Shown: positions 1,303 to 39,081 of the stretch, in pieces
Position numbering within the stretch: the stretch's first letter is position 1
Layout of the letters: each line of letters opens with the position of its first letter
DNA from: a virus
Strand: one strand, 5' to 3'
Virus record (IMG/VR): IMGVR_UViG_3300005613_000144
Span: 1-41,894 of that record
Length of the DNA stretch: 41,894 bases
Position numbers and translations under genes: made by a program
The notes under the pieces: model-generated
Told to the model about the DNA's origin: nothing
Seen by the model: only the letters and a program-made list of their open reading frames with translations
The model's database searches: none

Positions 1303-4152
1303 ATGTCAGTTAAAAAGTTCAAATTTGTCTCCCCTGGTGTTTTTATCAGCGAAGTAGACAACTCCCAATTGCCAGCAGCTTCCGAAGTTGTTGGTCCAAT
1401 GATTGTTGGTAGATTGCCTTATGGTCCAGCAATGACCCCTGTTAAGGTTGAGTCATTCTCAGAGTTTATCGAAATCTTCGGTCAGCCAGTTCCTGGATCT
1501 TCTGGTGGTGATGTTTGGAGAGATGGGAACCTTCAGGGTCCAACATATGCTGCCTATGCCGCACAAGCATACTTGAATGCTGATGTCGGTCCAGTCACAA
1601 TGTTTAGATTGCTTGGACAAGAGAACGCAAACTATACTGGTGGAACCTCTTTGGAAGACAAGGGTGCTGCTGGTTGGACACTTGCTGGTGACGCTTCTAT
1701 TGGTGATGGTGGTCCTTACGGTCTTGTTTTGATTGACTCTGGCTCCGGCGCAAGAAATGCTTATCTTGCTGCTGTTTGGTATGTTAACTCTGGCTCAGTC
1801 GAACTTACAGGCTCACTCGCAGGCGGCGGAGCACAAGCACAAGGAACATACGGAATGTTCGCTAACCAAGGCACTTCAACTCAGCCAGAATACACAATTG
1901 TTGTAAAAGATCCAGCAGGCACAGTTGTTCACAAGACAGCATTTAACTTCAATAAGAACTCTGATAAGTTCATTAGAGAAGTCTTTAACACCAATCCACA
2001 ATTGGTAAACTCTGATGTTGTTAATACCAGTGTCCTGGCAAACGGTGAACAATACTATTGGCTTGGAGAGACTTATGAAGACGGTTACGCAAAGGTTGGT
2101 AACACAACAGTAAGAATCTTGGATTTGGCTGATCCTCATGCTATGATTATTGCTCTTTCCGATGGAGCAACAGATCGCTCCGAGATGAGAAAAAGCTTCG
2201 AATATCCAGCCACAGGTTGGTTCATTTCTCAGGATGTTACAAATAACTTCACAGCATATGACCCAAGAAACATGACTCAATTGTTTAGGCTTGTTTCTCT
2301 TGGGGGCGGAGAGTGGCCACAAGCTAACTTGAAGGTCTCTATTGAAAATATCGCCGCTTCCACAAGTATTCAAGACCCATATGGTTCTTTTGATGTTGTT
2401 GTTCGCTTGGCAAATGATTCTGATAATGTAGTCAGATATGTTGAAAGATTCTCCGGTGTTAACTTGAACCCAGCTTCCGATAAGTACATTGGTGCTGTTA
2501 TTGGTGACAAATACACTGAATTCGACACAACTCAAAATAGATTGAGAGAATACGGTGAATTCAATAATCAATCCAAGTACATCAGAGTCGAGGTAAAGGA
2601 AGAGGTTGCTTCTGGTCTTGCTAACCCATCCTTCCTTCCATTCGGTGTCTATGGTCCTAAACGTCCAGGTGCCATTCAGATCACTTCTGGCTCTGCTGCT
2701 CAGACAGCACTTCAGAGCACTGATTCAATCATTCTTAGTGGCGCTGCGGCAGCAAACTCCTTGGCAGGATCGAACCAGTACAATGCTGGCGGATATACTG
2801 ATCACACTGCTTCAATTTACTTCCCAAGCGTTCCAACAAGAGTTTCTGCTTCCGCAGGCGGCTTGGCTAACCCAACAGATGCCTTCTTCGGAGCAACAAC
2901 TGCCCAAGACTTGGAAGATGAGAACATTAAGTTCCAAAAGGGCTATGGAGATTATCTCCGCTCTTATCCAGCAGGTCTTCAAAGTACACTCACAGACTCT
3001 TGGGTGTTCTCTCTTGATGATGTTGTTACTTCTGGTTCTGCCACATCTTTCCACGAATTTGGATCTCGTGCTGCGGGAGCATCTACAACAGCACAGGGTA
3101 CTGGTTATAGGGCGATTCTTGACGCTGGTTATGACAGCTTCACCGCTCCTATGTTCGGCGGCTTCGATGGTCTTAAAATTACAGAAATGGAGCCATTCAG
3201 AAACTCTGCGATGTCTTCCACAGACACTGAGTTTACAAACTATGCGTTCAACTCTATCAAGCAAGCGCTTCAATCAGTCGCAGATCCAGAAGTTGTTGAA
3301 TATAACATTCTTGCGATCCCTGGCTTGACAAATACAAAACTTACGCAACAAATGATTGATATCTGCGAAGATAGAGCAGATGCTCTTGCGATCATCGATC
3401 TTGAAAATGTATATGAACCATTTACAGAAACTACAAATGCTTTCAAGGATAGAATTAGCACCCCAGCACAAGCTATCTCTTCTTTGAGAGCAAGACAGAT
3501 TGATTCCTCTTACGCTTGTACCTACTTCCCATGGGCTCAGGCAAGAGACACCATCAATTCAAGACTTCTCTGGGTTCCACCTTCTGTCGTCGCTATCGGT
3601 ACAATGGCTAACTCTGAGGCGAAGTCCGAGCTTTGGTTCGCACCAGCAGGCTTCAATAGAGGCGGTCTCTCCGAAGGCGCAGCAGGTATCCCAGTCACAA
3701 ACTTGACTTACAAGTTGACTTCCAAGGATAGAGATCAATTGTATGACGCCAATGTTAACCCAATTGCCTCCTTCCCATCTGAGGGTATTGTAGTCTTCGG
3801 ACAAAAGACAATGCAAGTTCAAAGATCTGCTCTTGATCGTATCAACGTCCGCCGCTTGATGATTTTCGTCAAGAAGGAGATTTCCAGAATCGCATCCGGA
3901 TTGTTGTTCGACCAAAACGTTCAAACAACTTGGACAAGATTTACAAACCAAGTAAATCCATTCTTGTCCAGTGTTCAATCCAGATTGGGCTTGACAGAAT
4001 TCAGAGTCATCCTTGACGAGACTACAACAACACCAGACCTTGTTGATCAAAACATTATGTACGCGAAGATCTTCCTTAAGCCAGCAAGAGCTATCGAATT
4101 CATCGCTATTGACTTTGTTATTACAAGATCTGGCGCATCTTTTGAAGATTAA
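1303..4152 (+). CDS. Tail sheath protein (T4 gp18-like)
   Basis: The 949-residue protein forms the contractile outer sheath of the tail. The N-terminus (FVSPGVFISEVDNS...VVGPMIVGRLPYGP) matches the start of phage sheath proteins. The C-terminal 150 residues (NVRRLMIFVKKEISRIA..., FLSSVQSRLGL, ARAIEFIAIDFVI) match the conserved sheath core that forms the handshake strands. It is longer than T4 gp18 (about 660 residues), and the extra length lies in the central Gly/Ser/Thr-rich surface region. A good Shine-Dalgarno sequence (AAGGAG) precedes the ATG. The tube gene follows, as in most myoviruses. Confidence 0.95.
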   Translation: MSVKKFKFVSPGVFISEVDNSQLPAASEVVGPMIVGRLPYGPAMTPVKVESFSEFIEIFGQPVPGSSGGDVWRDGNLQGPTYAAYAAQAYLNADVGPVTMFRLLGQENANYTGGTSLEDKGAAGWTLAGDASIGDGGPYGLVLIDSGSGARNAYLAAVWYVNSGSVELTGSLAGGGAQAQGTYGMFANQGTSTQPEYTIVVKDPAGTVVHKTAFNFNKNSDKFIREVFNTNPQLVNSDVVNTSVLANGEQYYWLGETYEDGYAKVGNTTVRILDLADPHAMIIALSDGATDRSEMRKSFEYPATGWFISQDVTNNFTAYDPRNMTQLFRLVSLGGGEWPQANLKVSIENIAASTSIQDPYGSFDVVVRLANDSDNVVRYVERFSGVNLNPASDKYIGAVIGDKYTEFDTTQNRLREYGEFNNQSKYIRVEVKEEVASGLANPSFLPFGVYGPKRPGAIQITSGSAAQTALQSTDSIILSGAAAANSLAGSNQYNAGGYTDHTASIYFPSVPTRVSASAGGLANPTDAFFGATTAQDLEDENIKFQKGYGDYLRSYPAGLQSTLTDSWVFSLDDVVTSGSATSFHEFGSRAAGASTTAQGTGYRAILDAGYDSFTAPMFGGFDGLKITEMEPFRNSAMSSTDTEFTNYAFNSIKQALQSVADPEVVEYNILAIPGLTNTKLTQQMIDICEDRADALAIIDLENVYEPFTETTNAFKDRISTPAQAISSLRARQIDSSYACTYFPWAQARDTINSRLLWVPPSVVAIGTMANSEAKSELWFAPAGFNRGGLSEGAAGIPVTNLTYKLTSKDRDQLYDANVNPIASFPSEGIVVFGQKTMQVQRSALDRINVRRLMIFVKKEISRIASGLLFDQNVQTTWTRFTNQVNPFLSSVQSRLGLTEFRVILDETTTTPDLVDQNIMYAKIFLKPARAIEFIAIDFVITRSGASFED

Positions 4153-6283: not shown

Positions 6284-8527
6284 ATGGCACAATTTGACGA
6301 CTTCGCAAAAATCCTTAAAGAAGCTGGCAAAGACGCGCAAGAGATAGAAAAGATTCTCAAAAGTCTCAGAGAAGAAGCAAAAAAGACTGCCGAAGAATTA
6401 GAAGAAGAACTTGAATCACTTAAAGTCAAGTTATCGCTTGCTAAATCAATTGTTGAGCAACAAGAACTCCAAAGAGATATTCAAGAAAAACTTCTTGAAA
6501 TTGAAGTATCCCAAGGCAGAGCCACCAAAGAGCAATTAGAGTCTTTGAGGCAAATCAATGCGACGACAGAAAAGGTCGCAGACAGATTTGATAACATATT
6601 TGATTCTCTTACAGGCGTAAATTCAAAGCTGCAAGACTCGATTTTTGCTGAGATGATGAAGCCAGGCGGTATGCAAGGCTTAATAGATTCCTTCCAGAGA
6701 ACCTTTACAGCCACAAATATTCTCGCATCTGGTCTTTCAAAAGTTGTTGAAATGTCGGTAGCGCTTTCTTTGGCAACCGATAATGTCTTAGTTGAGTTCA
6801 ATAGGGCAACAGGCGCTTCCAGTTTATATAATAACGAAATCATGGCATTAGAGCAAAACATGTATGAGCATGGCGTAGGAATCGATAACGCCGCTTCTGC
6901 TTATGCCAGCTTGGTTACGAATGTTACCTCTTTCAATAATATGTCGGCATCAACAAGGCAAGATATAGCAGAAACAACTGCTCTTCTTGATAAGTTTGGT
7001 GTAAGCGCTGATTCAACTGCTCAAAATATTCAGTTAATGACTTCGGTTATGGGATTGAGTGGCGAAGAAGCTGCTGCAACTTCGAGACAAATGTTTACTC
7101 TTGCCCAGTCGCTTGGTATGCCTCCTGCTGAAATGGCAGCAGCCTTCCAGAGCGCCGCGCCACACATGGCTAAATTTGGCTCTATGGGAGTTGAAGTGTT
7201 CATGGATGTTGCTGCCGCAGCCCGTGAAGCTAATATGTCAGTTGATCAGCTTTTAAGAATAACGGAACAATTTGATACATTCGAAGGCGCTGCCCAAGCC
7301 GTTGGAAAATTAAATGCTATCCTTGGTGGTCCTTTCTTGAATTCATTGGAAATGGTTACAGCTACAAACCCTGTTGATAGAATGAGAAATCTATCTGATG
7401 CGATTGCGCAAGCAGGTTTGAGCTTCGATGAAATGGGGTATTACGAAAGACAAGCAATCGCAAACGCAGCAGGCTTACAGGATGTTAGTGAATTAGCACT
7501 CGTAATGGCAGGTGAGTTTGATGGTCTAAGTGATAGCATGGCGAACATGTCTCAGTCTGAGCTTGTTAATCTTCAAAAGCAAAATGCCCAATTTAATACT
7601 CTTGCTGATAAGACAACTCAAATTATGAGAACTTTGGCGCTTCAATTCCAGCCAGTTGTGGATTTTATAAAAGAAGCAGCGGATTTGTTCTTGTACCTTA
7701 ATAAGCAAACAAATGGTCTTTTGCCTTATTTGGTCATTGCCGCCTCCGCCATGGGTGCTTTGGCTTTGGCAGCCATGATGGTTCTCCCGCCGATCATCAC
7801 TATGGGTGCCTCCTTAGCGACTCTTACAGTTACAGCCGCACCAGCAGGGGCAAGTTTGGCTGGTTTGGCTCCGGTTGTCTCGGCAGCAGGCGCTGCAATG
7901 GCAGCAGGTGCCCCAGGTATTTTGGCTCTTGGTGCCGCATTCCTTATGCTTGGTGCTGGTATCGGGCTCGCCGCCGCTGGTATGGCGCTCTTCGTCTTGT
8001 CTATGAGGCAACTTTTTGAGGTGGCAACACCAGATCAAATGTTGGCATTCGGAGCATCGCTAATTATGATCGGGATTGGTATGCAGGCTCTCGCCGCCGC
8101 GTCGATTTTCTTGGGTCCGGTTCTTGTCCTTTTGGCGGGTCTTAGTGCTGCTTTGCTTGGTGTTTCTTACGCAGTCAGTCTGATGAACTTTGAAAACCTT
8201 CTTCCTCTAACAAATTTGTTCCAAGCTATCGCAACAATCATAACTGGTGAGATGGATAACTTGACAGAAACGATTGAAGCGGTTACAAATATGGCAGACG
8301 CTATTAGTAACGTTGATGACGCAAGAAAGATAGTTGCCGTAAGACAGGTTATAGATTCGATAAATGGAAGACCCCCACCCCCCGCTGCTGCTGCTCCTGC
8401 TGCCGCTGCTCCTGTTGCTGCTGGTGGAAATAGACAACCAATCTATTTAAGAGTAGAGCTTGGTAATAGATATTTTGATCAGTATGTTGGCGAGCTTGTT
8501 AACGGAATGATTAATCCATTCGGATAA
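6284..8527 (+). CDS. Tail tape measure protein
   Basis: The 747-residue protein has the tape-measure pattern: a charged coiled-coil N-terminus (about residues 1-110, Lys/Glu/Leu-rich), a long Ala-rich helical middle, several strongly hydrophobic segments around residues 475-640 (for example LVIAASAMGALALAAMMVL and AAFLMLGAGIGLAAAGMALF), then a Pro/Ala linker and a short C-terminal domain. Tape measures set tail length and their hydrophobic segments help DNA cross the inner membrane. It follows the tail assembly gene and precedes the baseplate genes, the standard order. A strong ribosome-binding site (GGGGGGAA) is present. Confidence 0.85.
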   Translation: MAQFDDFAKILKEAGKDAQEIEKILKSLREEAKKTAEELEEELESLKVKLSLAKSIVEQQELQRDIQEKLLEIEVSQGRATKEQLESLRQINATTEKVADRFDNIFDSLTGVNSKLQDSIFAEMMKPGGMQGLIDSFQRTFTATNILASGLSKVVEMSVALSLATDNVLVEFNRATGASSLYNNEIMALEQNMYEHGVGIDNAASAYASLVTNVTSFNNMSASTRQDIAETTALLDKFGVSADSTAQNIQLMTSVMGLSGEEAAATSRQMFTLAQSLGMPPAEMAAAFQSAAPHMAKFGSMGVEVFMDVAAAAREANMSVDQLLRITEQFDTFEGAAQAVGKLNAILGGPFLNSLEMVTATNPVDRMRNLSDAIAQAGLSFDEMGYYERQAIANAAGLQDVSELALVMAGEFDGLSDSMANMSQSELVNLQKQNAQFNTLADKTTQIMRTLALQFQPVVDFIKEAADLFLYLNKQTNGLLPYLVIAASAMGALALAAMMVLPPIITMGASLATLTVTAAPAGASLAGLAPVVSAAGAAMAAGAPGILALGAAFLMLGAGIGLAAAGMALFVLSMRQLFEVATPDQMLAFGASLIMIGIGMQALAAASIFLGPVLVLLAGLSAALLGVSYAVSLMNFENLLPLTNLFQAIATIITGEMDNLTETIEAVTNMADAISNVDDARKIVAVRQVIDSINGRPPPPAAAAPAAAAPVAAGGNRQPIYLRVELGNRYFDQYVGELVNGMINPFG

Positions 8528-12900: not shown

Positions 12901-13632
12901 ACAAATGGCAACGGTTTAGTACTGGCTAATTTCGCACCCGTCGTCCGTGCCGCAGATACATTGACATTGGGATCCAGAATAAATATCGATGCTCTAAAAG
13001 ACCCAACACCACTCCTTAAAGTTGGTGAAGCCAGGTTCACAGCCGAAGATACATTCCAATATAAAGTCTTCTATATTCAAAATGTCTTGTCCTCAAACAT
13101 GAGAGGAAACAGAAAAGAAGATGAATCTAATGGTATTATGCATTTGGGGCTTGGTGAAGATAGGGGACTTGTAAAGCAAGCAAGTTTTTCCAGGACAGAT
13201 CTTCAAGGTTTGCGCGAGCAAAGAGTTGTTGAAAGAGATAGATTGGACCCACTTAGCCACCTTGCTGATGTGTATAATGTAAACTTTACCATGTTTGGTA
13301 ATACATTATTCTGGCCAGGGCAGTATTTATTTTTCAATCCCATTGGTTTTGGTTCCAGGTTTGGAAGCCCATTAGATCCAAGATCTGTATCCAGAGTTAT
13401 GGGGCTTGGGGGATATCATATGGTTGTTAAGGTTTCGTCCTTTATTGAGGCAGCAAAGTTTGAAACAACTGTTGAAGCACTTTACGAAACTTCTGGTGGT
13501 GATAAGTCCGAACTCGCCCATGGTCCAGTTGAAGGCACTGAATCTAATGACTCAGGAAATATTCAATCCGCTCAGGTCTCGCAGCCGATAGCAGCACAAT
13601 CTAACGTTGGCGACATCAACAAGAAGGAATAA
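9928..13632 (+). CDS. Very large baseplate-region structural protein
   Basis: The 1234-residue protein is the largest in the window and lies in the baseplate cluster. Visible features are an N-terminal aromatic-rich section (ESRWGAYYDKAFGYSWYGET), a Glu/Lys/Arg coiled-coil part near residues 265-325, a second charged helix near 590-630, an unusual Gly/Ala/Val-rich hydrophobic stretch around residues 713-775, and a beta-rich C-terminal domain containing FGNTLFWPGQYLFFNP and GGYHMVVKVSSFIEA. It is probably a baseplate hub or wedge component that joins adaptor and tail-tip functions. No specific T4 counterpart could be recognised with confidence. Confidence 0.6.
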   Translation: MAKPWKESRWGAYYDKAFGYSWYGETGYLDKVPEFSSTTPLETLHRPHIELIFKEDLWGSVRSTKDLERLLPDAISRAAGGDSELAQRLSLPENFYSEFVKICEEIRGKCNFETLAELGEVYRRFYYKETLAYKDSSGKYYLDKPAGIDTEPVESAVVGNVLDFDGRNFNNLMAVTGLQSGAYGTFLSPLPVNGNGSPLWSSNPNLPNSSTGGYGYGPQYALIWQFAQTNTYTQLVERLSGTGYKGTVLGTDTFLGPGGGVAQAFEDARLREAGKQEEIDKRLAQRTAEAARLEEGQKAEDLTEEEIRQAISFEHQRLLAQNVGQLADANIRRGYDKEKYRRSYMIDGDPYKLINLLTLRENGADFSKITVPQASALVPQISLFKVLYNDNGSYEGETRILFKTFLELQKQTSQATGVETTLGGARSGVGIKSFEWELNGTNIANVKSDITAKLVLYFQNFDDLLQTNEEGFRYVDLLVRPSKEDLEDDSIDTKETAEFINVDTKELDPKFYEIKAEVGWASNDSYLGSPINKKAIQNAIKSQKHTFFLTLVDHEFEINQDGTFMLTINYRARLDGMLNDVRADVLMTEESKRKISELTDRLDDAKKKDPDREKRIKEEIKQVKDEQRHASNTDILNKLLTQDKIFVGYYDKDTIRSVGYDLGKLDAKTLNLTTDGLPTPANEDFLQRITEDAVSQANADAAKARGALVVDEDRCAVTNSSVSGVALTTGATLLTPGGVGGIIAGGIALYNDSEGTSNVAGQVLGGVVTGASTVGSAVVNFFGGSSPVEEESPDIQEIDSDEYSCFGIGYASQTGTEVVRKPKSLDDLEELGLYQSNGRYFIPYFFLGDLIDIVAQKALDVLAADEDSSPGIFSDPRTKNIKIILGSIGVQNLLSDVSPGRKIVNIGDIPVSVDMYRDFWARRVTKKERDSYSLNQFIKDCLEEFVLDAIGYQDFDGQRKQMFRVTDATISLPAKMAGGSPLDPLYDRIKETNGNGLVLANFAPVVRAADTLTLGSRINIDALKDPTPLLKVGEARFTAEDTFQYKVFYIQNVLSSNMRGNRKEDESNGIMHLGLGEDRGLVKQASFSRTDLQGLREQRVVERDRLDPLSHLADVYNVNFTMFGNTLFWPGQYLFFNPIGFGSRFGSPLDPRSVSRVMGLGGYHMVVKVSSFIEAAKFETTVEALYETSGGDKSELAHGPVEGTESNDSGNIQSAQVSQPIAAQSNVGDINKKE

Positions 13633-14922: not shown

Positions 14923-16107
14923 TTGCTCTTCCAGACGCTTGACGAAAAACAAGAATGCGTTGGGATTTATTTTGGTGATGAGTTGATTTTCAATCAGCCT
15001 CTTCCCGAAAATCTTTCTCATACTTGGTCTTATTCGGCTTTCTTGGCTGACTTGGACGTGGAGTATGCTAAGCTCTATTGCGGCTCTCAAACGCTGGATG
15101 ACGTATGTCCTGAGTCACTTAGAGACCAGTGGGATGATGTTAAAGAAAGGCTGCTTGCTTTCCATAAGTCCTTGCGAACAGCAAGGGTTGATCTTTCACA
15201 AAATTGCTTTTATGACCTGGTGCCGCAACGATTTTTGATTGAATATTGTTATGTTCGAAACCTCATAACAGATTGGGTTTTCCAGAACTTTGAGAAGCCA
15301 AAGAACTACGATTACATGCTTGATCTTACAAGAGAAATTGATCGCATTAAACATACGAAGCTTAAAATTGATTTAAGAGAACTCAATATGGTAAAGCGAG
15401 ACCATCGAGAATTCGCAAAGAAGATTCGCAAACTTAATCCTTATTGTCGTTTCAATATCAATGGAACAAGAACAGGAAGGCTAACAACAACAAAGGGAAG
15501 CTTTCCTATTCTTACATTCAAGCACGAATACAGAAGCATTCTCAAACCAAGCAATGATTTCTTTGTTGAACTTGACTTTAACGCAGCAGAAATCCGAACT
15601 CTCCTGTCTCTTCAAAACAAGCCACAACCACAAGAAGATATTCACGAGTGGAATATCAAAAATGTTTTCAGTGGAAAGGAGACCCGAGAAGAGGCTAAGC
15701 AGCGCATTTTTGCCTGGTTATATAATCCTGAGAGCACAGATCATGCCTGTGAAAGAGCGTATGACCGAAAAAATATCTTGACAAAATACTTCTCAGGTGA
15801 TAAGATTATAAACGCATTCGGAACAGAAATAGAATCAGAAAAGCGAACGGCTCTCAACTACATTATCCAAAGCACTTGTGCTGAAAACGTTTTAAGGCAA
15901 ATGATTAAAGTCTCAAAGGCTCTTCAAGGCAGCAAATCATATGTCGCTTTTCCTATTCATGATTCGATTGTGATAGACTTTTCAATGGAAGACAAAGGCA
16001 AATTGAAAGAACTTGTGAAAATCTTTTCTCAAACAGAGCTTGGCGATTTTATGGTGAACATTCGAGCAGGAAAAGATTTCGGCAACTTAAAGGATATTGA
16101 GGTTTAG
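14923..16107 (+). CDS. Short exonuclease-less family A DNA polymerase-like protein
   Basis: The 394-residue protein has the three polymerase motifs of family A. Motif A is FVELDFNAAEIRTLLS (D218), motif B REEAKQRIFAWLYN (K259) and motif C FPIHDSIVID (H346, D347). An RTGRLTT motif lies ahead of motif A. There is no 3'-5' exonuclease domain and the fingers are short, so it is less than half the length of Pol I. The start is a TTG at 14923 behind GAGGTAAGG, two nt after the upstream stop. With a Pol III alpha gene also present, it may serve in repair or gap filling. All catalytic residues I can identify are present. Confidence 0.82.
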   Translation: MLFQTLDEKQECVGIYFGDELIFNQPLPENLSHTWSYSAFLADLDVEYAKLYCGSQTLDDVCPESLRDQWDDVKERLLAFHKSLRTARVDLSQNCFYDLVPQRFLIEYCYVRNLITDWVFQNFEKPKNYDYMLDLTREIDRIKHTKLKIDLRELNMVKRDHREFAKKIRKLNPYCRFNINGTRTGRLTTTKGSFPILTFKHEYRSILKPSNDFFVELDFNAAEIRTLLSLQNKPQPQEDIHEWNIKNVFSGKETREEAKQRIFAWLYNPESTDHACERAYDRKNILTKYFSGDKIINAFGTEIESEKRTALNYIIQSTCAENVLRQMIKVSKALQGSKSYVAFPIHDSIVIDFSMEDKGKLKELVKIFSQTELGDFMVNIRAGKDFGNLKDIEV

Positions 16108-31345: not shown

Positions 31346-31915
31346 ATGAACAATATTGAGGACATTAAAAACAAATGGGAGAACACAAGGCTTCTAGAAG
31401 ATCTACCAGAAGACGAGCAATATTCTATGAGTCAATTGTTAGAAAATGAAGCAAGACATATTCTATCTACTTACCAAGATGTAAATGAAAGTCAATTAGC
31501 ATACATTTGTTTTCCTTTAATTCGCAGGATATTCCAATCATTAGGTTTTTTTGAAGAAGGTGATTGCCCACTCACTTTCACATACGAAACAAGTGCTCTT
31601 CCCGCATTTACCTACTTCAAGCCAGACGAAGAAGAATCAAGTGTTGCAACAACTCAGGTTTATGATTTTGAATCCTCGCCAAGCAAAGAAGTAGTTGAGA
31701 AAATCTGTTCTAATTGTTATTATGCTCTGGATGCGGAAGTTGGACTAACAGCAGAACTCGCTGAAAGATTCAGAAACGAACTTAACGAGAAACACAAAGG
31801 AAAACATCTTATTTTTGGAGATCCAATTATGATGAGAGAAGAAGACGGCGAATCGATTTATTCTTATCGTTGTGCGGTTTTACCGGGAGGTTCAAGATTA
31901 CACGAAGGAGAATAA
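31346..31915 (+). CDS. Hypothetical phage protein
   Basis: The 189-residue acidic product starts MNNIEDIKNKWENTRLLEDL. Features are an N-terminal helical region with MSQLLENEARHIL, a central beta-prone region (PLTFTYETSALPAFTYF), two closely spaced Cys (ICSNCYY) and a C-terminal segment with LIFGDPIMMREE. The pattern of a helical N-terminus and FGDPI-type end resembles uncharacterised proteins common in T4-like phages, but no function is known to me. Confidence 0.6.
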   Translation: MNNIEDIKNKWENTRLLEDLPEDEQYSMSQLLENEARHILSTYQDVNESQLAYICFPLIRRIFQSLGFFEEGDCPLTFTYETSALPAFTYFKPDEEESSVATTQVYDFESSPSKEVVEKICSNCYYALDAEVGLTAELAERFRNELNEKHKGKHLIFGDPIMMREEDGESIYSYRCAVLPGGSRLHEGE

Positions 31916-31918
31916 AGA

Positions 31919-32107
31919 ATGAAAGTCGGTGATTTGGTAAAAAACGGACAAGGCAGTGTTGGCATAGTATACGGCATTGGATACGGTGGCAGATGCCGGA
32001 GCAAGGACAAATGCCCCTTCCCCAACCCAGACATTCACGTCTATGCTTCAAGTGGATATGCGATTTGGAGCTATAACGCTTTGGAAGTTATCAGTAAGGC
32101 AACCTAA
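31919..32107 (+). CDS. Small MKVGDLV-type protein, unknown
   Basis: The 62-residue product starts MKVGDLVKNGQGSVGIVYGI, has a Gly-rich turn, two Cys (GRCRSKDKCPF) and beta-prone ends (HVYASSGYAIWSYN). This fits a small SH3-like barrel like the 29126 and 30308 products. Excellent ribosome-binding site (AGGAG). No function assigned. Confidence 0.6.
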   Translation: MKVGDLVKNGQGSVGIVYGIGYGGRCRSKDKCPFPNPDIHVYASSGYAIWSYNALEVISKAT

Positions 32108-32123
32108 TCAAAGAGAGTGAACA

Positions 32124-32291
32124 ATGATTGTAAAAGCAGAAAAAAATGAGAACGGTGAACTATTTGTAATCTTCCCCCAAGAGTTTGTTGAAAGACTCAA
32201 ATGGAATGAAGAAACAGAAGTAAATATGGACATTGGTGTCGCTTTATTTGACAAGACACCGACGACAGTTGTACTAACAAAAAAGGATTAA
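32124..32291 (+). CDS. AbrB/SpoVT-like small protein
   Basis: The 55-residue product reads MIVKAEKNENGELFVIFPQE followed by FVERLKWNEETEVNMDI. A strand with NGE, a hydrophobic strand ending in PQE, a short helix, then a strand is the pattern of swapped-hairpin AbrB-like DNA-binding domains found in antitoxins and transition regulators. No toxin gene can be recognised next to it. ATG 32124 is preceded by AGAGAG. It may regulate nearby genes or be a stray antitoxin; the fold call is tentative. Confidence 0.5.
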   Translation: MIVKAEKNENGELFVIFPQEFVERLKWNEETEVNMDIGVALFDKTPTTVVLTKKD

Positions 32292-32294
32292 CAA

Positions 32295-32531
32295 ATGACC
32301 AGAGATGAACTAATCAAAGAAGAAATGCTAAATGCTCTGATTTCGGAACTTACCGCTCGCGAAGCAAAGGCGAAGTCAACAATTCGTATTTATTTGAACA
32401 AACCAGTTGCAATTGCTGACCATAGTGATATACTAGATGAGGTTGCCAAGTGGGCAAACTATGGTGCTGAGGCTCGTGATGCGAAGGAATTCCTAATCAG
32501 CGAGTTTCTTGTCAAGGAAGATGAAAAATAA
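32295..32531 (+). CDS. Small helical protein, unknown
   Basis: The 78-residue product (MTRDELIKEEMLNALISELT...) is predicted mostly helical, with Glu/Ala/Lys-rich amphipathic segments. It is 3 nt after the AbrB-like gene and preceded by AAAAAGGA. It ends before the regulatory hairpin of the GIY-YIG gene. No family was recognised. Confidence 0.58.
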   Translation: MTRDELIKEEMLNALISELTAREAKAKSTIRIYLNKPVAIADHSDILDEVAKWANYGAEARDAKEFLISEFLVKEDEK

Positions 32532-32548
32532 AGTGAGAAGTTAGTTCG

Positions 32549-32591
32549 TTTTAGTTCTCTTGACTATTTACTATAAAGGGGAACTAAAATG
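32549..32591 (+). promoter_or_regulatory. RBS-occluding hairpin enclosing a candidate late promoter
   Basis: TTTTAGTTC (32549-32557) and GAACTAAAA (32581-32589) form a perfect 9-bp stem. The 3' arm ends at the A of the GIY-YIG start codon and abuts its AAGGGG ribosome-binding site. The loop holds ACTATTTACTA (32563-32573) followed by TAAA. TTAGTTC also occurs once more at 32541-32547. In T4, I-TevI-type genes are silenced in readthrough mRNA by such a hairpin, while late transcripts beginning inside it are translated; the layout here matches. Confidence 0.6.
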
Positions 32592-33344
32592 AGAAATGTT
32601 ATTTACAAGATACGAATCGAAGGATGTGAAAGGTTTTACATAGGATCGGCGGTTGACTTCAAAAAGAGAAGACTTCATCACCTATCAGAACTCCGCCGCT
32701 CTGCCCACAACAACAGACACTTACAAAGAATATTTGAAAAATATGGAGAAGACAGTTTCTCTTTTCAAATTCTGGAAGAGGTTTCAAAATCTGAGTATCT
32801 TTTAGAGGCAGAGCAGAAGTGGATTGATAAATTCGATTTCTCCCTGCTAATAAACATTTGTCAGAAGGCGGGCAACACTTTGGGTAGGAAACATACAGAA
32901 AGTGCAAAGCAAAAAATAAGCGAGAATCATCACGATGTTTCTGGCGAGAATAACCCAATGTTTGGGAAAAGAGGAAACCTTAGTCCGAACTATGGTAAGT
33001 CTCACTCCGAAGAGACAAAGAGAAAAATCTCAGAAGCCACCAAGGGCAGAGAGAGTGTCTGGAAAGATAAAAAAAGACCAGAGCATTCTGAACTTATGGC
33101 AGGTGAAAACAACCCATTTTATGGAAAGAGCCATTCCGATGAGGCAAGGGCAAAGATATCAAGCAAAGCAAAAGAAAGAGTAATGTCAAGAGGTGGTCAG
33201 AAAATCAACATAGACATTGCTCGTGAGATCAGAGCGCGTTATAATGAAGGTGGGGTTACAATCACCGCACTCGCAAAAGAATACGGACTATCAAGAACTT
33301 ATTGTGGAAAACTTTTAAAAGGAGAATATTGGAATGAAGATTGA
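32589..33344 (+). CDS. GIY-YIG homing endonuclease with NUMOD3 repeats
   Basis: The 251-residue protein has a GIY-YIG catalytic domain at the N-terminus ([20 protein letters not shown], then a charged helix with [11 protein letters not shown]). At least three NUMOD3-type DNA-binding repeats follow ([44 protein letters not shown]), and a C-terminal helix-turn-helix ([20 protein letters not shown]). It is a free-standing mobile endonuclease; its target is probably the adjacent dnaE gene, whose start it overlaps by 11 nt. Confidence 0.9.
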
Positions 33345-34920
33345 TCCGGTCGCTGACAAAGTACCATACGTTAACCTACACGCCCACACAGTTATGGGTT
33401 CTATTTTTGATGCTATTGGGTATCCCGAAGAGCATTTTAATTTTTGCTATGAGAATGGTGGCGATGCGATGGCGATCACGGATCACGGAAATATGAATTC
33501 CGTTCCTGCTGCTGTCCTACACGTCCAGAAAATGAAAGCGGAAGGCAAGAACTTTAAGCCAATCTTTGGTGTAGAAGCTTATTTCATTCCATCAATTGAA
33601 GAGTGGAAGCACGAATATGAAGAAGCAAAGAAAGACAAAAAGCGAAGTAAAACACTTGCCAAAGAAGTTACTGCGACGACTGTTGAGGACGAAGCTGCGA
33701 GTAAGAAAGCAGTTCGAAACATTCTCAATAGAAGGCGACATCTTATTCTCCTTGCGCAAGATCAAGAAGGATTGAACAATCTCTTCGGTCTAATCTCAGA
33801 ATCGTTCAAGCCAGGGAATTATTATCGATATCCCCGTGTCGATTATAAGATGCTAAAAAAGTATTCTAAGGGCGTCATGGCGGCATCTGCTTGCTTGGGC
33901 GGTGTCTATGCTGGAAACTTCTGGGAAAACCGCGAGGAGGGCGAAGAAGCGGTCCTGAACGCAATGCGAGACACCACAAGGAACATGATGGACATCTTTG
34001 GTGATCGCTGGTTTGGCGAGCTTCAATGGAACAATGTCCCAGAACAACATCAGCTTAATAAACATATCATTCGGATGCACAAAGAGTTTGGAATCAAGCT
34101 TATCTCGACTTCTGACTCGCACTATCCAAACCCAGATGCTTGGAAGGACCGCGAACTTTATAAGCGTCTTGGTTGGCTTGGTAAGTCAAAGCCTGCTTAT
34201 GAAAGCTCGGATCTTCCAGAGGGGACCGAAGAAATTGGATATGAACTCTTCCCTCGTAATGGAAATCAAATGTGGGAAGCTTACAAGAAGTATTCTCAAG
34301 AGTGTGGAGTTGAATACGATGACAATCTTGTATTGGAATCTATCACGAACACTCACATGATCGCACATCAAATGGTGGATGATTTCCTTCCAGACAACGA
34401 AGTTCGTCTGCCTGACTTTGTTGTTCCTGCTGGTGAGACTTCTGACTCTGCTTTGGAAAAGTTCTGTATGGAAGGTCTTCGCCTCAAAGGTCTTCATGAT
34501 AATGAAGAATACACTGAACGACTTCGTATGGAGCTTGGAGTTATCGCTGCTCGTGGTTTCTCAAAGTACTTCCTAACAATGGAGCAGATCAGCACAAAAG
34601 CAAAGCAAATGATGCTTACCGGACCTGGACGTGGTTCTGCTGCTGGCTCTCTTGTTGCTTATGCTCTGGACATTACCCAAGTAGATCCTCTCAAATATGG
34701 TCTTCAGTTCTCTCGCTTCATGATTGCTACGCCTCTCATCGGTATTATTGATGAAAATAGCGATACGAAACAAAAGACAGAGGCGGTCCAATTCGAGACA
34801 GACAGTGGTAAGACCATCACGCTCTCGCCAGAAGTAGAGATAAAGGTAAAAAGAAACGATAGTATCATCTCGACTCTCGTCAAGAACTTACAAATAGGTG
34901 ATGAAATATTATCGGCATAA
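33334..34920 (+). CDS. dnaE: DNA polymerase III alpha subunit, N-terminal half (split)
   Basis: The 528-residue half contains the PHP domain ([38 protein letters not shown]), the thumb/palm region, and [20 protein letters not shown]. Homology to DnaE ends at FSRFM (residues 459-463), just before where PDIDYD should follow. The last 65 residues are intein-like and end at TAA 34918. The remaining catalytic part is encoded from 35928. Alone it lacks the catalytic aspartates. The start overlaps the GIY-YIG gene; AAGGAG precedes it. Confidence 0.9.
34726..34917 (+). other. Reduced intein-like segment at the end of the DnaE N-half
   Basis: About 64 residues after the polymerase homology include [20 protein letters not shown] and [12 protein letters not shown]. 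These resemble intein block B and its following strands (GxxIxLTPxH ... LKxGDEI). The usual block A (Cys or Ser first residue plus about 30 residues) is missing, and the block B His is Val. If polymerase spacing is kept as in E. coli (six residues between FL/FM and MPD), the intein would begin at A465. Confidence 0.5.
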
Positions 34921-34932
34921 AAAGGCTACCCT

Positions 34933-34943
34933 ACTATTTACTA
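34933..34943 (+). promoter_or_regulatory. Candidate late promoter motif ACTATTTACTA before the LAGLIDADG gene
   Basis: Exact copy of the motif found before the sheath and GIY-YIG genes, followed directly by ATAGGAGGATAGG, the ribosome-binding site region. CTACCCTA (34926-34933) can pair imperfectly with TAGGAGGATAG, so a weak RBS-hiding structure like that of the GIY-YIG gene is possible. Confidence 0.45.
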
Positions 34944-34961
34944 ATAGGAGGATAGGCGATT

Positions 34962-35927
34962 ATGAGATATCAAAATAAGAACGAAGAATACTTCACTAAA
35001 ACTAACAAACATAACTCTTACTGGGCAGGCTTTATTGGAGCAGACGGTTATGTAAACGAGGACAAGAATACTCTACAAATAAGTCTTTCCGCAAAAGATA
35101 AAGAGCATTTAGAAAAGCTAAAAAATGAATTAAACAAGGACTATGAAATAAAAACCAGAAAGAATACTGGTCCTTGGGCAGCAGAGGAAACCTATTACTG
35201 CTCGCTTTGTTTTATTTCTGAGCGAACTGTGGAGGCACTAAAAAGAAACTGGAAGATTCATCAAAGAAAAACACATACCTTAACCTTTCCGCAAGACATC
35301 TCAATAGAAGAAAAGAAAGGTTATTTGTGTGGATACATCGATGGAGATGGTTGTATAAATGTGAAAAAGAACTCTCGTGGAAAAATACAACTTTCCATAA
35401 ATGGAAATGAAGAATTCTTAGAAGGTGTAGTGAAGTTTCTAAAAGAAGAAGGCGGAATAAAAATAAAGAATAATCTTTATCCAAGCAGGAATATTTTCGT
35501 TTTCTCGGTACTTGGTAAAACAGCACTTTCAGTTCTGGACTTTCTATATGATGAACATTTACCATTAATGGAGAGAAAGTGGGCGAAGTATCTGGACAAC
35601 AAGGAGAGGAGATTTGGACAATACATTCCATGGACGAAGGAAGAAGAAATAGTATTGCGTGAGAACTATGAAAAAAGTAGTTCAGTAGAACTTCATAAGA
35701 AGTTTTTCAGCAACAGGAGTTTCTTCTCAGTAGAAAAAAAGATAACAGAAATGGGATTAACGAAGAGACCTCAGCCACAGAAGATCTGGACAGAAGAGGA
35801 AGATGAGAAATTTGTTGAAGCATTAAAAAATAACTTGACTTCCAGAGTCATTCATGAGACACTATTTCCGTATCGCACTTTTAGTTCAATAAGAAACAAG
35901 AGAAACAAATTAGTAAAGAGAGGATAA
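34962..35927 (+). CDS. LAGLIDADG homing endonuclease between the dnaE halves
   Basis: The 321-residue protein has two LAGLIDADG-type motifs, SYWAGFIGADGYV and GYLCGYIDGDGCI, about 105 residues apart, each with its catalytic acidic residue. The C-terminal third has two Trp-bearing Myb/SANT-like helical units (IPWTKEEEIVLRENY and KIWTEEEDEKFVEAL), probably extra DNA-binding modules. It has its own motif and ribosome-binding site and is not fused to the polymerase. Its site between intein-like halves is where an endonuclease domain sits in a full-length intein. The stop directly abuts the GTG of the C-half. Confidence 0.88.
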   Translation: MRYQNKNEEYFTKTNKHNSYWAGFIGADGYVNEDKNTLQISLSAKDKEHLEKLKNELNKDYEIKTRKNTGPWAAEETYYCSLCFISERTVEALKRNWKIHQRKTHTLTFPQDISIEEKKGYLCGYIDGDGCINVKKNSRGKIQLSINGNEEFLEGVVKFLKEEGGIKIKNNLYPSRNIFVFSVLGKTALSVLDFLYDEHLPLMERKWAKYLDNKERRFGQYIPWTKEEEIVLRENYEKSSSVELHKKFFSNRSFFSVEKKITEMGLTKRPQPQKIWTEEEDEKFVEALKNNLTSRVIHETLFPYRTFSSIRNKRNKLVKRG

Positions 35928-36029
35928 GTGAAAATAACGAACATTACTTTTTTGGAAGAAGCAGAGAGGGGTATCGTTCCGGTTCCTGCGGGTACATCAA
36001 AGACTATCGAAGGCATACAAGTAAGGAAT
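35928..36029 (+). other. Reduced intein-like segment at the start of the DnaE C-half
   Basis: The 34 residues before the polymerase homology end in IEGIQVRN, followed by TKDTNMPDIDYD. This resembles the intein C-terminal block (xxGIxVHN, then Cys, Ser or Thr), with Asn34 as last intein residue and Thr35 as +1 nucleophile. The penultimate His is Arg, and the block F consensus is poorly kept. The match is suggestive, not proven. Confidence 0.5.
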
Positions 36030-38075
36030 ACAAAAGATACCAATATGCCTGATATAGATTATGACGTAGCAGACTCCATGCATTTGAAGGAAACTCTTGT
36101 TCAAGACTGGGGTGATGATAAGGTTGCTCCTATCTCAAACTGGAATACACTTCAGCTTAAATCTCTTATCAAGGACATCTCAAAGTTCTACGGCATTCCG
36201 TTCACAGAAGTTAATTCTGTCACATCGGCAATGGTTGGAGAAGCAATTGGTCCAGCTAAGAAGAAGCACGGTCTTGCGGCTGGTCTTTACAATCCAACCT
36301 TTGAAGACCTTATGGAGTTCAGCGATTCTTTGAAGAACTTCTTGGCGAAGTATCCAAATGTGAAGACTCACGTTGAAACACTTGTTGGTCAAGTTCGGAG
36401 TTGTTCCCGACATGCTGGCGGCGTTGTGGTTGCTGAGAGCTTGGACTCCCGTATGCCGTTGATTAACTCTGGTGGTGTTCGCCAAACTCCTTGGTCTGAG
36501 GGGCAGAACGTTCGACACCTTGAACCAATGGGTTTCATTAAGTTCGACCTTCTTGGATTATCAACCTTGAAGATGATTGAGGGTGCTATCTCTCATATCC
36601 TTCGTCGCCATCACGGGATTGAAGACCCAACATTCGAAGACATTAAGAAATACTACGATGCTAACCTTCATCCAGATGTGATTGACCTGAACGACCAAAA
36701 GGTATATGAAAACATTTTCCACAAAGGAAAGTGGGCAGGAGTGTTCCAATTCACAGAGACTGGTGCTCAAAACTTCTGTGTTGAGGCTAAACCAAAGAAT
36801 CTGATTGACTTGGCGGCTATTACTTCCATCTATCGTCCTGGTCCGCTCTCTGCGAATGTCCACGTTGATTATGTTGAGTCGAAGAATAATCCTCAGTATG
36901 TCAAGTATATCAACAAAGAACATCAAGATATCACAGAAGAGACCTATGGATATCTTATCTTCCAAGAGCAGATTGCTTCCATGGCTCATCGTCTTGGAAA
37001 GAATATCAGTCTTGATGAAGGTAATCTTCTTCGTAAGGTCTTGACCAAGAAGGGTACAGGTAAGGGCGCACAGGTCAAAGAATCACTGCGAATGCGATTC
37101 ATTGAGGGCTGTGTAGAAAAAGGAATGAAGAAGACAACTGCTCAAAGGCTTTGGGAAAAGTTTGAATACTTCAATGCCTACGGCTTCAACAAGTCTCACG
37201 CAGTTTCTTACTGTATTATTTCTTACCAGTGTGCTTGGCTTCTGAACTATTACCAGTCAGAATGGATGGCAGCATTCCTCGACAAAGAACCAGAGTCAAG
37301 AAAAGAAAAGGCAATCAACATCGCGAAGTCTTTCGGCTTCAAGATTCGCAGCCTGAACGTCAACTCTTCGGGTCGTGTCTGGGAAATCTCAGAGGATGGT
37401 ACAACCCTCATTCAGCCATTGTCTTCTGTCAAGGGATTAGGTGATTCAGCGATTGACCAGATTGTTCGTAACCGACCATTCAATACAATCGAGGACTTCC
37501 TGTTCAATGAAAACGTGGTTTACTCAAAGCTGAACAAGAAGGCGCTTGATGTTCTTTGTCGCTCCGGTGCTCTTGATTCCTTGATGGATGATCGCTTCAC
37601 TGGTGGAAAGCATTTCTGGTCTGCTATTTGTGTTGACCGACCTCGGAAGCCAAAGAACCTGGAAGAGAACATTGTTCTTTATCGTCCAGAAGGCGCATTC
37701 TCAGATGAGGAAAAGATTAGTTATCTTGTTGAGCTAACTGGTGTTTTCCCGTTCGACCGAGTGATGAAGGAAGATCTTTACAAGAAGCTAAAAGAAAATA
37801 TGATCCCATCCATCGCAGAATATAATCCAGATTACGGAGATGTTGTTTGGTTTATTCCTCGCAAGGTTGTTCCAAAGAAGACAAAGAATGGAAAGGATTA
37901 CTGGATTCTCGAAGTTATTGACGATACAAACAGTCTTACAAAGGTTCGATGTTGGGGCATTGGTGAACACGACATGGTTCACCTGAATCGTCCTTACATG
38001 GCGAAGCTGGACTACAATGGCAAGTGGGGATTCTCGACAAGAAATTTACGAAGGAATTTTAGGATTCTTGCTTGA
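35928..38075 (+). CDS. dnaE: DNA polymerase III alpha subunit, C-terminal half (split)
   Basis: The 715-residue half starts at GTG 35928. After a 34-residue intein-like lead it carries MPDIDYDVAD (D42, D44 equal the catalytic E. coli D401 and D403), SRHAGGVVVAES, FIKFDLLGLSTL, GVFQFTETGAQNF, SIYRPGPLSA, QEQIASMA and AYGFNKSHAVSYCIISYQ. Helix-hairpin-helix (PLSSVKGLGDSAI) and OB-fold (near residues 625-710) domains follow. All conserved polymerase motifs I can check are intact. It must join or pair with the N-half to work. Confidence 0.92.
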   Translation: MKITNITFLEEAERGIVPVPAGTSKTIEGIQVRNTKDTNMPDIDYDVADSMHLKETLVQDWGDDKVAPISNWNTLQLKSLIKDISKFYGIPFTEVNSVTSAMVGEAIGPAKKKHGLAAGLYNPTFEDLMEFSDSLKNFLAKYPNVKTHVETLVGQVRSCSRHAGGVVVAESLDSRMPLINSGGVRQTPWSEGQNVRHLEPMGFIKFDLLGLSTLKMIEGAISHILRRHHGIEDPTFEDIKKYYDANLHPDVIDLNDQKVYENIFHKGKWAGVFQFTETGAQNFCVEAKPKNLIDLAAITSIYRPGPLSANVHVDYVESKNNPQYVKYINKEHQDITEETYGYLIFQEQIASMAHRLGKNISLDEGNLLRKVLTKKGTGKGAQVKESLRMRFIEGCVEKGMKKTTAQRLWEKFEYFNAYGFNKSHAVSYCIISYQCAWLLNYYQSEWMAAFLDKEPESRKEKAINIAKSFGFKIRSLNVNSSGRVWEISEDGTTLIQPLSSVKGLGDSAIDQIVRNRPFNTIEDFLFNENVVYSKLNKKALDVLCRSGALDSLMDDRFTGGKHFWSAICVDRPRKPKNLEENIVLYRPEGAFSDEEKISYLVELTGVFPFDRVMKEDLYKKLKENMIPSIAEYNPDYGDVVWFIPRKVVPKKTKNGKDYWILEVIDDTNSLTKVRCWGIGEHDMVHLNRPYMAKLDYNGKWGFSTRNLRRNFRILA

Positions 38076-38100
38076 CGTGACCTAAAATAAGTGCTATATT
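38072..38100 (+). promoter_or_regulatory. Sigma70-type promoter upstream of the UvdE-like gene
   Basis: TTGACG (38072-38077), 17-bp spacer, TATATT (38095-38100). The -35 overlaps the dnaE stop codon, as in other promoters here. About 40 nt of leader precede the start codon. Confidence 0.78.
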
Positions 38101-38142
38101 GTATTTGTTCGCAGCACCCTCACCCAAACAAGAGAGCAACAA

Positions 38143-39081
38143 ATGCAAACACTCGGATATGCCTGCATCTGCATGAACCTTTCCAATGGACCTAAGAGCA
38201 CCAGGATCACCACTAACCGCAGCATGATCAAGCGAACATTCCAGCAGAAGGGTTTGCCCTATGCTTCCGAGCTTGCTTTACAGAACTGCAAGGATCTTAT
38301 CAAGATTCTCAAATGGAATCACCAAAATGATATTCACTTCTTCCGCATGTCTTCTGAGATCTTCCCATGGGCATCCGAGTATCAGCTAAGCGATCTTCCA
38401 GATTACAAAGAAATTTGTAAGGCTCTCGAAGAGGCAGGCTCTTTTGCCAGGTCAGTCGGTCAGCGATTGACTTGTCACCCAGGTCCATTCAACAAGCTTA
38501 CGAGTCCAAAGGAGCACGTTATCAAGAATACAATCCGTGATCTTGAGATTCATGGCGAGCTTATGGACCTTCTTGGTATGCCAAGAACTCCCTGGGCAAA
38601 GCTCAACATTCATGTTGGTGCGACCTATGGTGACAAACCATTCGCAATAAGTAACTTCTGCCGTAACTTTGAGAAACTACCTGAGTCAGTCAAGACTCGT
38701 TTGACCGTGGAGAATGATGATAGGGAGTCTTTGTATTCAACAGCAGAACTGGTAGATGAAATCCATTCAAGGATTGGAATCCCGGTTGTGCATGACTTCC
38801 ATCATCATTTGTTCACGAACCGTGGCATGTCCCAGAAGGAGGCTCTTGGGCTTGCCTGTAAGACTTGGGGTGATGTAACCCCAGTGGTTCACTATTCTGA
38901 ATCACGAGCACAAGAGCACAACGACCCCAAGATTAAGCCACAGGCTCACTCAGATATGATTTTCAATTATATTGATACTTTCGGCTATGATGTCCACATC
39001 ATGATCGAAGCTAAGCACAAGGAGCTTGCCCTTCTTGAATACCGCAACATGTATCAACAAAAGATGCTGTTGGCGGGCTGA
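38143..39081 (+). CDS. UV damage endonuclease (UvdE/UvsE-like)
   Basis: The 312-residue product matches the UvdE TIM-barrel family: LGYACICMNL at the N-terminus, FFRMSSEIFPW, TCHPGPFNKLTSPKE, LNIHVGATYGDK, LTVENDDRESLY, PVVHDFHHHLF and PVVHYSESR. These strands carry the His, Glu and Asp metal ligands of the three-metal site. The enzyme nicks DNA 5' of UV lesions, an alternative excision-repair start useful in sunlit water. It is transcribed from its own promoter, with the Smr-like gene coupled behind it. Confidence 0.88.
   Translation: MQTLGYACICMNLSNGPKSTRITTNRSMIKRTFQQKGLPYASELALQNCKDLIKILKWNHQNDIHFFRMSSEIFPWASEYQLSDLPDYKEICKALEEAGSFARSVGQRLTCHPGPFNKLTSPKEHVIKNTIRDLEIHGELMDLLGMPRTPWAKLNIHVGATYGDKPFAISNFCRNFEKLPESVKTRLTVENDDRESLYSTAELVDEIHSRIGIPVVHDFHHHLFTNRGMSQKEALGLACKTWGDVTPVVHYSESRAQEHNDPKIKPQAHSDMIFNYIDTFGYDVHIMIEAKHKELALLEYRNMYQQKMLLAG

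Follow-up and report, generated by a model that had tools for sequence, protein, structure and literature searches.

In phage Aeh1, a homing endonuclease splits the essential enzyme encoded by nrdA into working pieces, and the products of the split gene 43 of Aeromonas phage 25 co-purify with activity (PMC2988022). These two cases (nrdA/mobE and gp43A/43B) and the T4 topoisomerase with mobA have in common that a homing endonuclease gene, of the HNH or GIY-YIG type, splits an essential phage enzyme whose chains assemble without splicing, and that related phages have the intact gene (PMC2988022). In 2009, Dassa et al. described genes that are fractured by split inteins still able to splice, with a free endonuclease in between; in the papers citing that work (PMC6892783, PMC10448857) their layout, as in PolB of MIJ3 (PMC6892783), is given as N-extein plus N-intein, free endonuclease and C-intein plus C-extein in a phage replication gene. 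Moreover, group 2.2 jumbo phages split a minimal DNA polymerase III alpha subunit at the boundary between its nucleotide (NTP)-binding and Mg-binding subdomains (PMC7824862). Here we describe a locus in IMG/VR virus record IMGVR_UViG_3300005613_000144, a virus of bacteria, whose 41,894 nucleotides are called the window below. Its DNA polymerase III alpha (DnaE) is coded by two genes (33334-34920 and 35928-38075) with a LAGLIDADG homing endonuclease gene between them (34962-35927), the first polymerase gene ending in an extension (N-tail) and the second beginning with another (C-lead). We consider it likely that a homing cassette has permanently turned DnaE into a two-chain enzyme, and that a splicing-dead split intein is probably retained as its docking module.

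An earlier sequence-only reading of the window had placed the three genes correctly and described the polymerase as split inside its active site. The two genes do part just before PDIDYD, with the refinement that both catalytic motifs, PDIDYD and FIKFDLLGL, sit in the second gene, the first keeping the PHP domain and the GRGSAAGS part. Domain searches assigned PHP and the first part of the palm to the first gene and the remaining palm, the fingers and HhH to the second, and all of these, with the catalytic Asp motifs of a family C polymerase, are present across the pair (Table 1). The N-part matches intact polymerases position by position until the residues preceding PDIDYD.

The empty site of relatives makes it clear that the extensions were inserted. 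When IMG/VR was scanned with the second polymerase gene, 266 relatives came up, and nearly all of the best 80, which were kept, are uninterrupted at this place. More than 40 distinct ones read through it (RF-LRADAKDY-PDIDYD) with neither tail nor lead, and therefore the extra residues of the window are not ordinary polymerase; had they been so, the proposal of the sequence-only reading would by its own terms have been refuted. The closest relative among the best 80, L001, codes for a single polymerase of about 1146 residues with RF-LRADAKDY-PDIDYD at the site, and its DNA is 95.6% identical to the window over 31907-34719 and 92% over 36044-38867. In L001 only 21 base pairs (bp) stand in place of the cassette, so that it represents the state without insertion and, being about 95% identical and uninterrupted, indicates a recent insertion in the window. 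The polymerase is thus made as two proteins because a mobile element landed inside its gene. As in a gene in pieces, there are uninterrupted homologues in close relatives (L001 and the more than 40 others), and the endonuclease gene between the pieces has intact motifs, both LAGLIDADG copies retaining their Asp.

The flanks of the insertion bear a further trace. From the insertion to 700 bp upstream and 1100 bp downstream, the window diverges from L001 by 11.6%, and farther out by 4.1%. The near/far ratio is thus 2.85, a value that none of 5000 shuffles reached; among 25 pairs of intact relatives it never exceeded 1.11, with a median of 0.86. Such a gradient fits co-conversion of the flanks during homing, and other recombination around the site could yield the same.

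Fractured relatives were found with degenerate DNA patterns at the PDIDYD junction and then with alignments of tails and leads, which gave four further lineages interrupted at the same site: L094 (also represented by L093 and L118 on separate contigs), L086 (also represented by L104), L143 and L149, the last on a contig of 183,930 bases. The N-tails of the five lineages, window included, align without gaps over 59 columns and the C-leads over 40. One family of tails and leads thus turns up in four phage lineages besides the window, whose fracture is therefore not a product of chance. The endonuclease gene is found at the same place in L094 (73-74% identical to the window copy) and in L149 (42%). 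In L086 the 128 bp between the halves code only for a remnant of the endonuclease C-terminus, KFVEALENNLTTQNIYETLFPYRTFSSVKNQRRK, and in L143 there is no endonuclease, the open reading frames (ORFs) lying about 75 bp apart; both stay fractured, and hence the fracture outlives the endonuclease. The short interval of L143 includes a nine-pair hairpin (13139-13211, CCTAAGGTA..TACCTTAGG) without a T-run after it.

A tree of fractured and intact alleles, built on the second polymerase gene, requires four changes for the fractured state, at least three of them imposed by branches with good support: the window falls with the intact L002 and L003 (100/100), and L093 with the intact L068 (100/100). Scattered in this way among intact alleles, the cassette must have moved between polymerases or been repeatedly lost by recombination with intact ones. 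Other searches were less productive. The window N-tail alone found no relatives, and the window tail and the L094 lead had no tblastn match in 50,697 phage records. A canonical intein at this site (HN followed by MPD.D) was sought in 84,980 genomes, where none appeared, and in IMG/VR, where the sole viral match was the fractured L143. Some Streptomyces phages matching up to residue 528 of the first gene were rejected as fractured, their DnaE genes being uninterrupted. Separately, DnaE of Rossellomorea phage phiT1 (L084, 3322-6604) is annotated as two genes with a 49-residue ORF between them and a later break point.

The intein ancestry that the sequence-only reading had seen by eye was borne out for the N-tail by profile searches. 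A five-row N-tail profile run against 177,635 PDB sequences ranked the TvoVMA intein (4o1s) first (E 4.5e-4), followed by hedgehog Hint domains (0.067) and the KlbA intein (0.3). Against the phages' own contigs, a three-row profile matched two canonical split inteins, one lying in an NrdJ-type reductase (E 7e-5) and the other in the L086 polymerase, within its PHP domain (E 1.6e-3), and the pairwise scores of the N-tail with these two sister-phage inteins were reached by at most 3 of 1000 shuffles. The N-part thus has the Hint-type sequence of protein-splicing inteins (classes 1-3). An AlphaFold model of the N-tail has five strands, with a predicted local distance difference test score (pLDDT) of 60, and its top five Foldseek matches are all inteins, none below E 0.5; VIA-align gave a single row, a Pho PolII mini-intein with a Z of 2.3, which is not usable as proof. 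For the C-lead, the same ancestry is only made likely, through the endings of two other lineages: that of L149 finishes in NGLLVHN, the same heptapeptide with which these two canonical inteins of sister phages end, and that of L143 in GVTVHN.

Both canonical inteins stand in fractured genes of their own. The polymerase gene of L086 (2139-5147) is in three pieces, its PHP domain being interrupted between SA and CLGG by a canonical split intein (CLTGDS..TPDH.. / ..YDITVEDTHNFFANGLLVHN followed by C) accompanied by a Vsr-like free endonuclease ORF (3025-3996). In L140 (1-2811), the same contig as the L094 fractured polymerase, an NrdJ-type ribonucleotide reductase is fractured by another (CCLDGDTLV..TPDH / ..NHNFFANGLLVHN followed by C); a free nuclease-like ORF separates the halves.

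The limits of the extensions had to be corrected in part. Of the roughly 64 and 34 extra residues first proposed, the lead has indeed 34, and the proper tail is shorter, about 58-59 residues from G34741. A proposed join of FMI to TKDTNM has the right length for the intact segment. FMI/A is however not a natural boundary, because the N-half carries its own nine-residue segment preceding PDIDYD: FMIATPLIG aligns without gaps to FLTKGSLEG and FMTKDAGSG in relatives and to FLTKGGSGY in an intact polymerase.

Canonical protein splicing needs a nucleophile as first residue (with exceptions in classes 2 and 3), a block-B His and a terminal Asn followed by Cys, Ser or Thr. The window lacks block A and has Val for the block-B His and Arg for the penultimate His, just as the sequence-only reading had stated. 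Block A is missing from all five cassettes, in which the first residue after the polymerase segment is K, K, K, R or A. The His of the block B motif Thr-x-x-His has become V, L, M, L and L (window, L094, L086, L143 and L149, the order used below), the penultimate residue of the C-lead is R, R, N, H and H, the terminal Asn is kept in 5/5, and the residue after it (+1) is T, P, P, R and R. The canonical set of block A, block-B His and (His-)Asn before Cys, Ser or Thr is therefore lacking and, on this sequence test, so is a split intein able to trans-splice. The same phages do have split inteins of the canonical type (C1, TPDH, HN before C) at other places.

Three routes by which the polymerase might still be processed have to be weighed against these residues. 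A minimal non-canonical split intein that goes on trans-splicing the polymerase, as the sequence-only reading had offered in one of its two options, would account for the intein homology of the N-tail, the invariant Asn and the fitting length of FMI plus TKDTNM. With no nucleophile at either junction in four of the five lineages, and with block A and the block-B His lost in all of them, it is not supported, and the nine-residue segment already present in the N-half also argues against it; trans-splicing here is very unlikely. Even less probable is a shedding of the C-lead by Asn cyclisation (C-terminal cleavage) once the halves have met. The HN ending retained in L143 and L149 and the Asn in 5/5 would suit it; against it, L094 and L086 have Pro directly after the Asn, R or N stands at the penultimate position in 3/5, and the changes in block B suggest that catalysis is absent, so that this route is hardly credible. 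Finally, homing endonucleases often ride in group I introns, and a self-splicing RNA intron might join the two coding parts. We rejected it as next to impossible: a Rfam search for group I or II introns had no match even at E 5, the ORFs of L086 and L143 lie too close together for one, the tails and leads evolve as protein, and the second half has its own start signals. In the window these are a GTG codon with AGAGGA upstream; a Shine-Dalgarno-like sequence precedes the second half in the window, L086, L143 and L149, and in L149 a sigma-70 match of 11/12 (7186-7214; TTGACA, 17-bp spacer, TATATT, TG before the -10) lies directly upstream.

The other option of the sequence-only reading, an intein that has decayed in a polymerase now working as a two-subunit enzyme, is supported, although 'decayed' understates the case: the tails and leads are conserved under purifying selection, the fracture outlives the endonuclease and the cassette is mobile. 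Between fractured lineages, tails and leads differ at proportions of 0.63-0.97 of synonymous sites (near saturation) and 0.22-0.55 of nonsynonymous ones, and the ratio of nonsynonymous to synonymous rates (dN/dS) between the window and the intact L001 is 0.049 for the N-part and 0.046 for the C-part. Judged from these comparisons, tails, leads and both polymerase halves are under purifying selection. The same figures bear on the idea that the polymerase is dying and that the phage replicates with a reduced family A polymerase or with the host enzyme. A gene for such a polymerase is indeed present at 14923-16107 of the window (394 residues, PF00476 at 1.2e-15, motifs A and C), a second polymerase of the phage. 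Against a dying DnaE stand the dN/dS of 0.05 in both halves, the intact catalytic motifs, the lack of frameshifts and the maintenance of both halves in five lineages, which make this idea highly improbable.

Altogether, a mobile cassette has inserted into the DnaE gene immediately before the catalytic PDIDYD. We propose that its endonuclease presumably cuts empty alleles, and that repair copies in the cassette with flanking polymerase sequence. The cassette brings a stop codon that ends the first half, its own free LAGLIDADG endonuclease and a start codon from which the second half is read. Removed by neither RNA nor protein splicing, it would leave the enzyme permanently as two chains, each bearing half of a former split intein that lacks the splicing residues. 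The insertion against an empty site, its recurrence in five lineages scattered on the polymerase tree, its persistence once the endonuclease is gone, the lost splicing residues and the purifying selection are observed; active cutting, activity as two chains and docking by the tails are inferred from them. The halves of working split inteins bind each other tightly, and here they would most likely dock non-covalently, uniting the PHP/N-palm chain with the catalytic palm and fingers.

The alternative is a plain case of genes in pieces, in which the halves assemble through the palm interface of the polymerase itself and the tails and leads are tolerated leftovers that dock nothing. The NrdA pieces of Aeh1 and gp43A/gp43B of Aeromonas phage 25 work without any intein (PMC2988022), and the jumbo phages break their polymerase between the same two parts as here (PMC7824862). 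Set against this are tails and leads alignable without gaps in five lineages, with a strong synonymous excess, even where the endonuclease is gone; useless tails should have been truncated. We therefore hold assembly without docking to be possible and rather unlikely.

Several points weigh against docking by a splicing-dead intein. Assembly of the halves might not need the tails. The C-lead had no significant intein match by profile or by pairwise score (not above shuffles), and its likely ancestry rests on position and on the ..GLLVHN and ..GVTVHN endings of L149 and L143. In an AlphaFold model of the joined tail and lead of L149, made with an artificial linker that was in part an out-of-frame reading of the endonuclease gene, pLDDT was about 40 in both parts. 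Moreover, the allele of the window itself has Thr at +1, and part of the dN/dS signal could predate the insertion.

Table 1. Features of the fractured polymerase locus (window coordinates)
Feature	Position	Strand	Evidence
DnaE N-part: PHP domain and N-terminal palm (GRGSAAGS)	33334..34740	+	Pfam PHP 1.7e-27, DNA_pol3_alpha 3.8e-26; uninterrupted relatives
Inserted cassette (N-tail, endonuclease, C-lead)	34720..36043	+	blastn of window against L001: replaces 21 bp (L001 3837-3857)
N-tail: intein-derived (block B region and following strands), without block A, B-block His to Val; stop 34918-34920	34741..34917	+	profile searches; five-lineage ungapped alignment
Free-standing double-motif LAGLIDADG homing endonuclease, 321 residues (AGFIGADG, CGYIDGDG), helix-turn-helix-like C-terminal part	34962..35927	+	PF14528 4.8e-14, above cut-off; phrog_4645 1.5e-32
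C-lead: 34 residues, read as intein C-terminal region, ends ..GIQVRN	35928..36029	+	40-column ungapped alignment with four other lineages
Cassette-type extein flank TKDTNM	36030..36047	+	[DE]T[NS]M in 5/5 fractured alleles; RADAKDY or similar in intact ones
DnaE C-part: PDIDYD, FIKFDLLGL, fingers, HhH; stop 38073-38075	36048..38072	+	Pfam fingers 6.1e-35, DNA_pol3_alpha 3.6e-18

In comparison with the Aeh1, T4 and phage 25 systems, the pieces described here belong to a family C polymerase, are separated by a LAGLIDADG enzyme, carry terminal tails that derive from an intein and are conserved across five lineages, and persist after loss of the endonuclease. The Dassa-type genes, as presented in the citing papers, keep the block A nucleophile, TxxH and HN before C/S/T, all of which are lost or altered in the window-type cassettes, so that no splicing is expected in the latter; canonical examples of that type occur in the same phages (NrdJ in L140, the PHP site of DnaE in L086). 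For the jumbo phages, distant genes and minimal domains were reported, with no mention of tails or endonuclease (PMC7824862), whereas the window has a full-length DnaE with PHP, fingers and HhH. PHROGs 7513 (461 residues) and 12219 (823 residues) resemble the N- and C-halves of a phage DnaE split at the same boundary, which suggests a recurrently used break point; with the jumbo-phage split, it indicates that a break here is tolerated. An intein that has lost splicing is also known in Arth_1007 of Arthrobacter FB24 (PMC3196547); being a single pseudogene, it differs from the conserved, split and mobile intein of an essential gene considered here. A literature search, with most subscription journals outside its reach, came upon no account of a two-chain enzyme held together by a splicing-dead split intein that is conserved and mobile.

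Regarding the endonucleases of the region, the C-terminal part of the LAGLIDADG enzyme (35600-35924) resembles phrog_323, a D5-like regulator, and tandem helical units were predicted with confidence for the homologous part of the L149 enzyme; it is probably a second DNA-binding module. A GIY-YIG homing endonuclease gene (32589-33344) overlaps the start of the polymerase gene by 11 bases; the corresponding region exists in the intact L001 too, so that this gene has no link with the fracture.

The usual view is that a mobile element persists in an essential gene by removing itself through splicing; the cassette of the window apparently persists without it, the broken enzyme working as two chains. 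On balance, we are inclined to see in it a homing element of a separate kind, which relies on the splicing of neither RNA nor protein. It would break its target gene and equip the two products with docking domains derived from a split intein that no longer splices; an essential polymerase, now two-chain for good, would thereby tolerate the insertion. Alleles that are empty, that carry the endonuclease and that lack it are all known, which makes each step testable, and natural intein halves that bind without splicing may find use as protein connectors. If true, an intein would have lost its chemistry and been kept for its tight binding, a concrete way for a mobile element to give rise to a new subunit interface and for a polymerase of one chain to become one of two.

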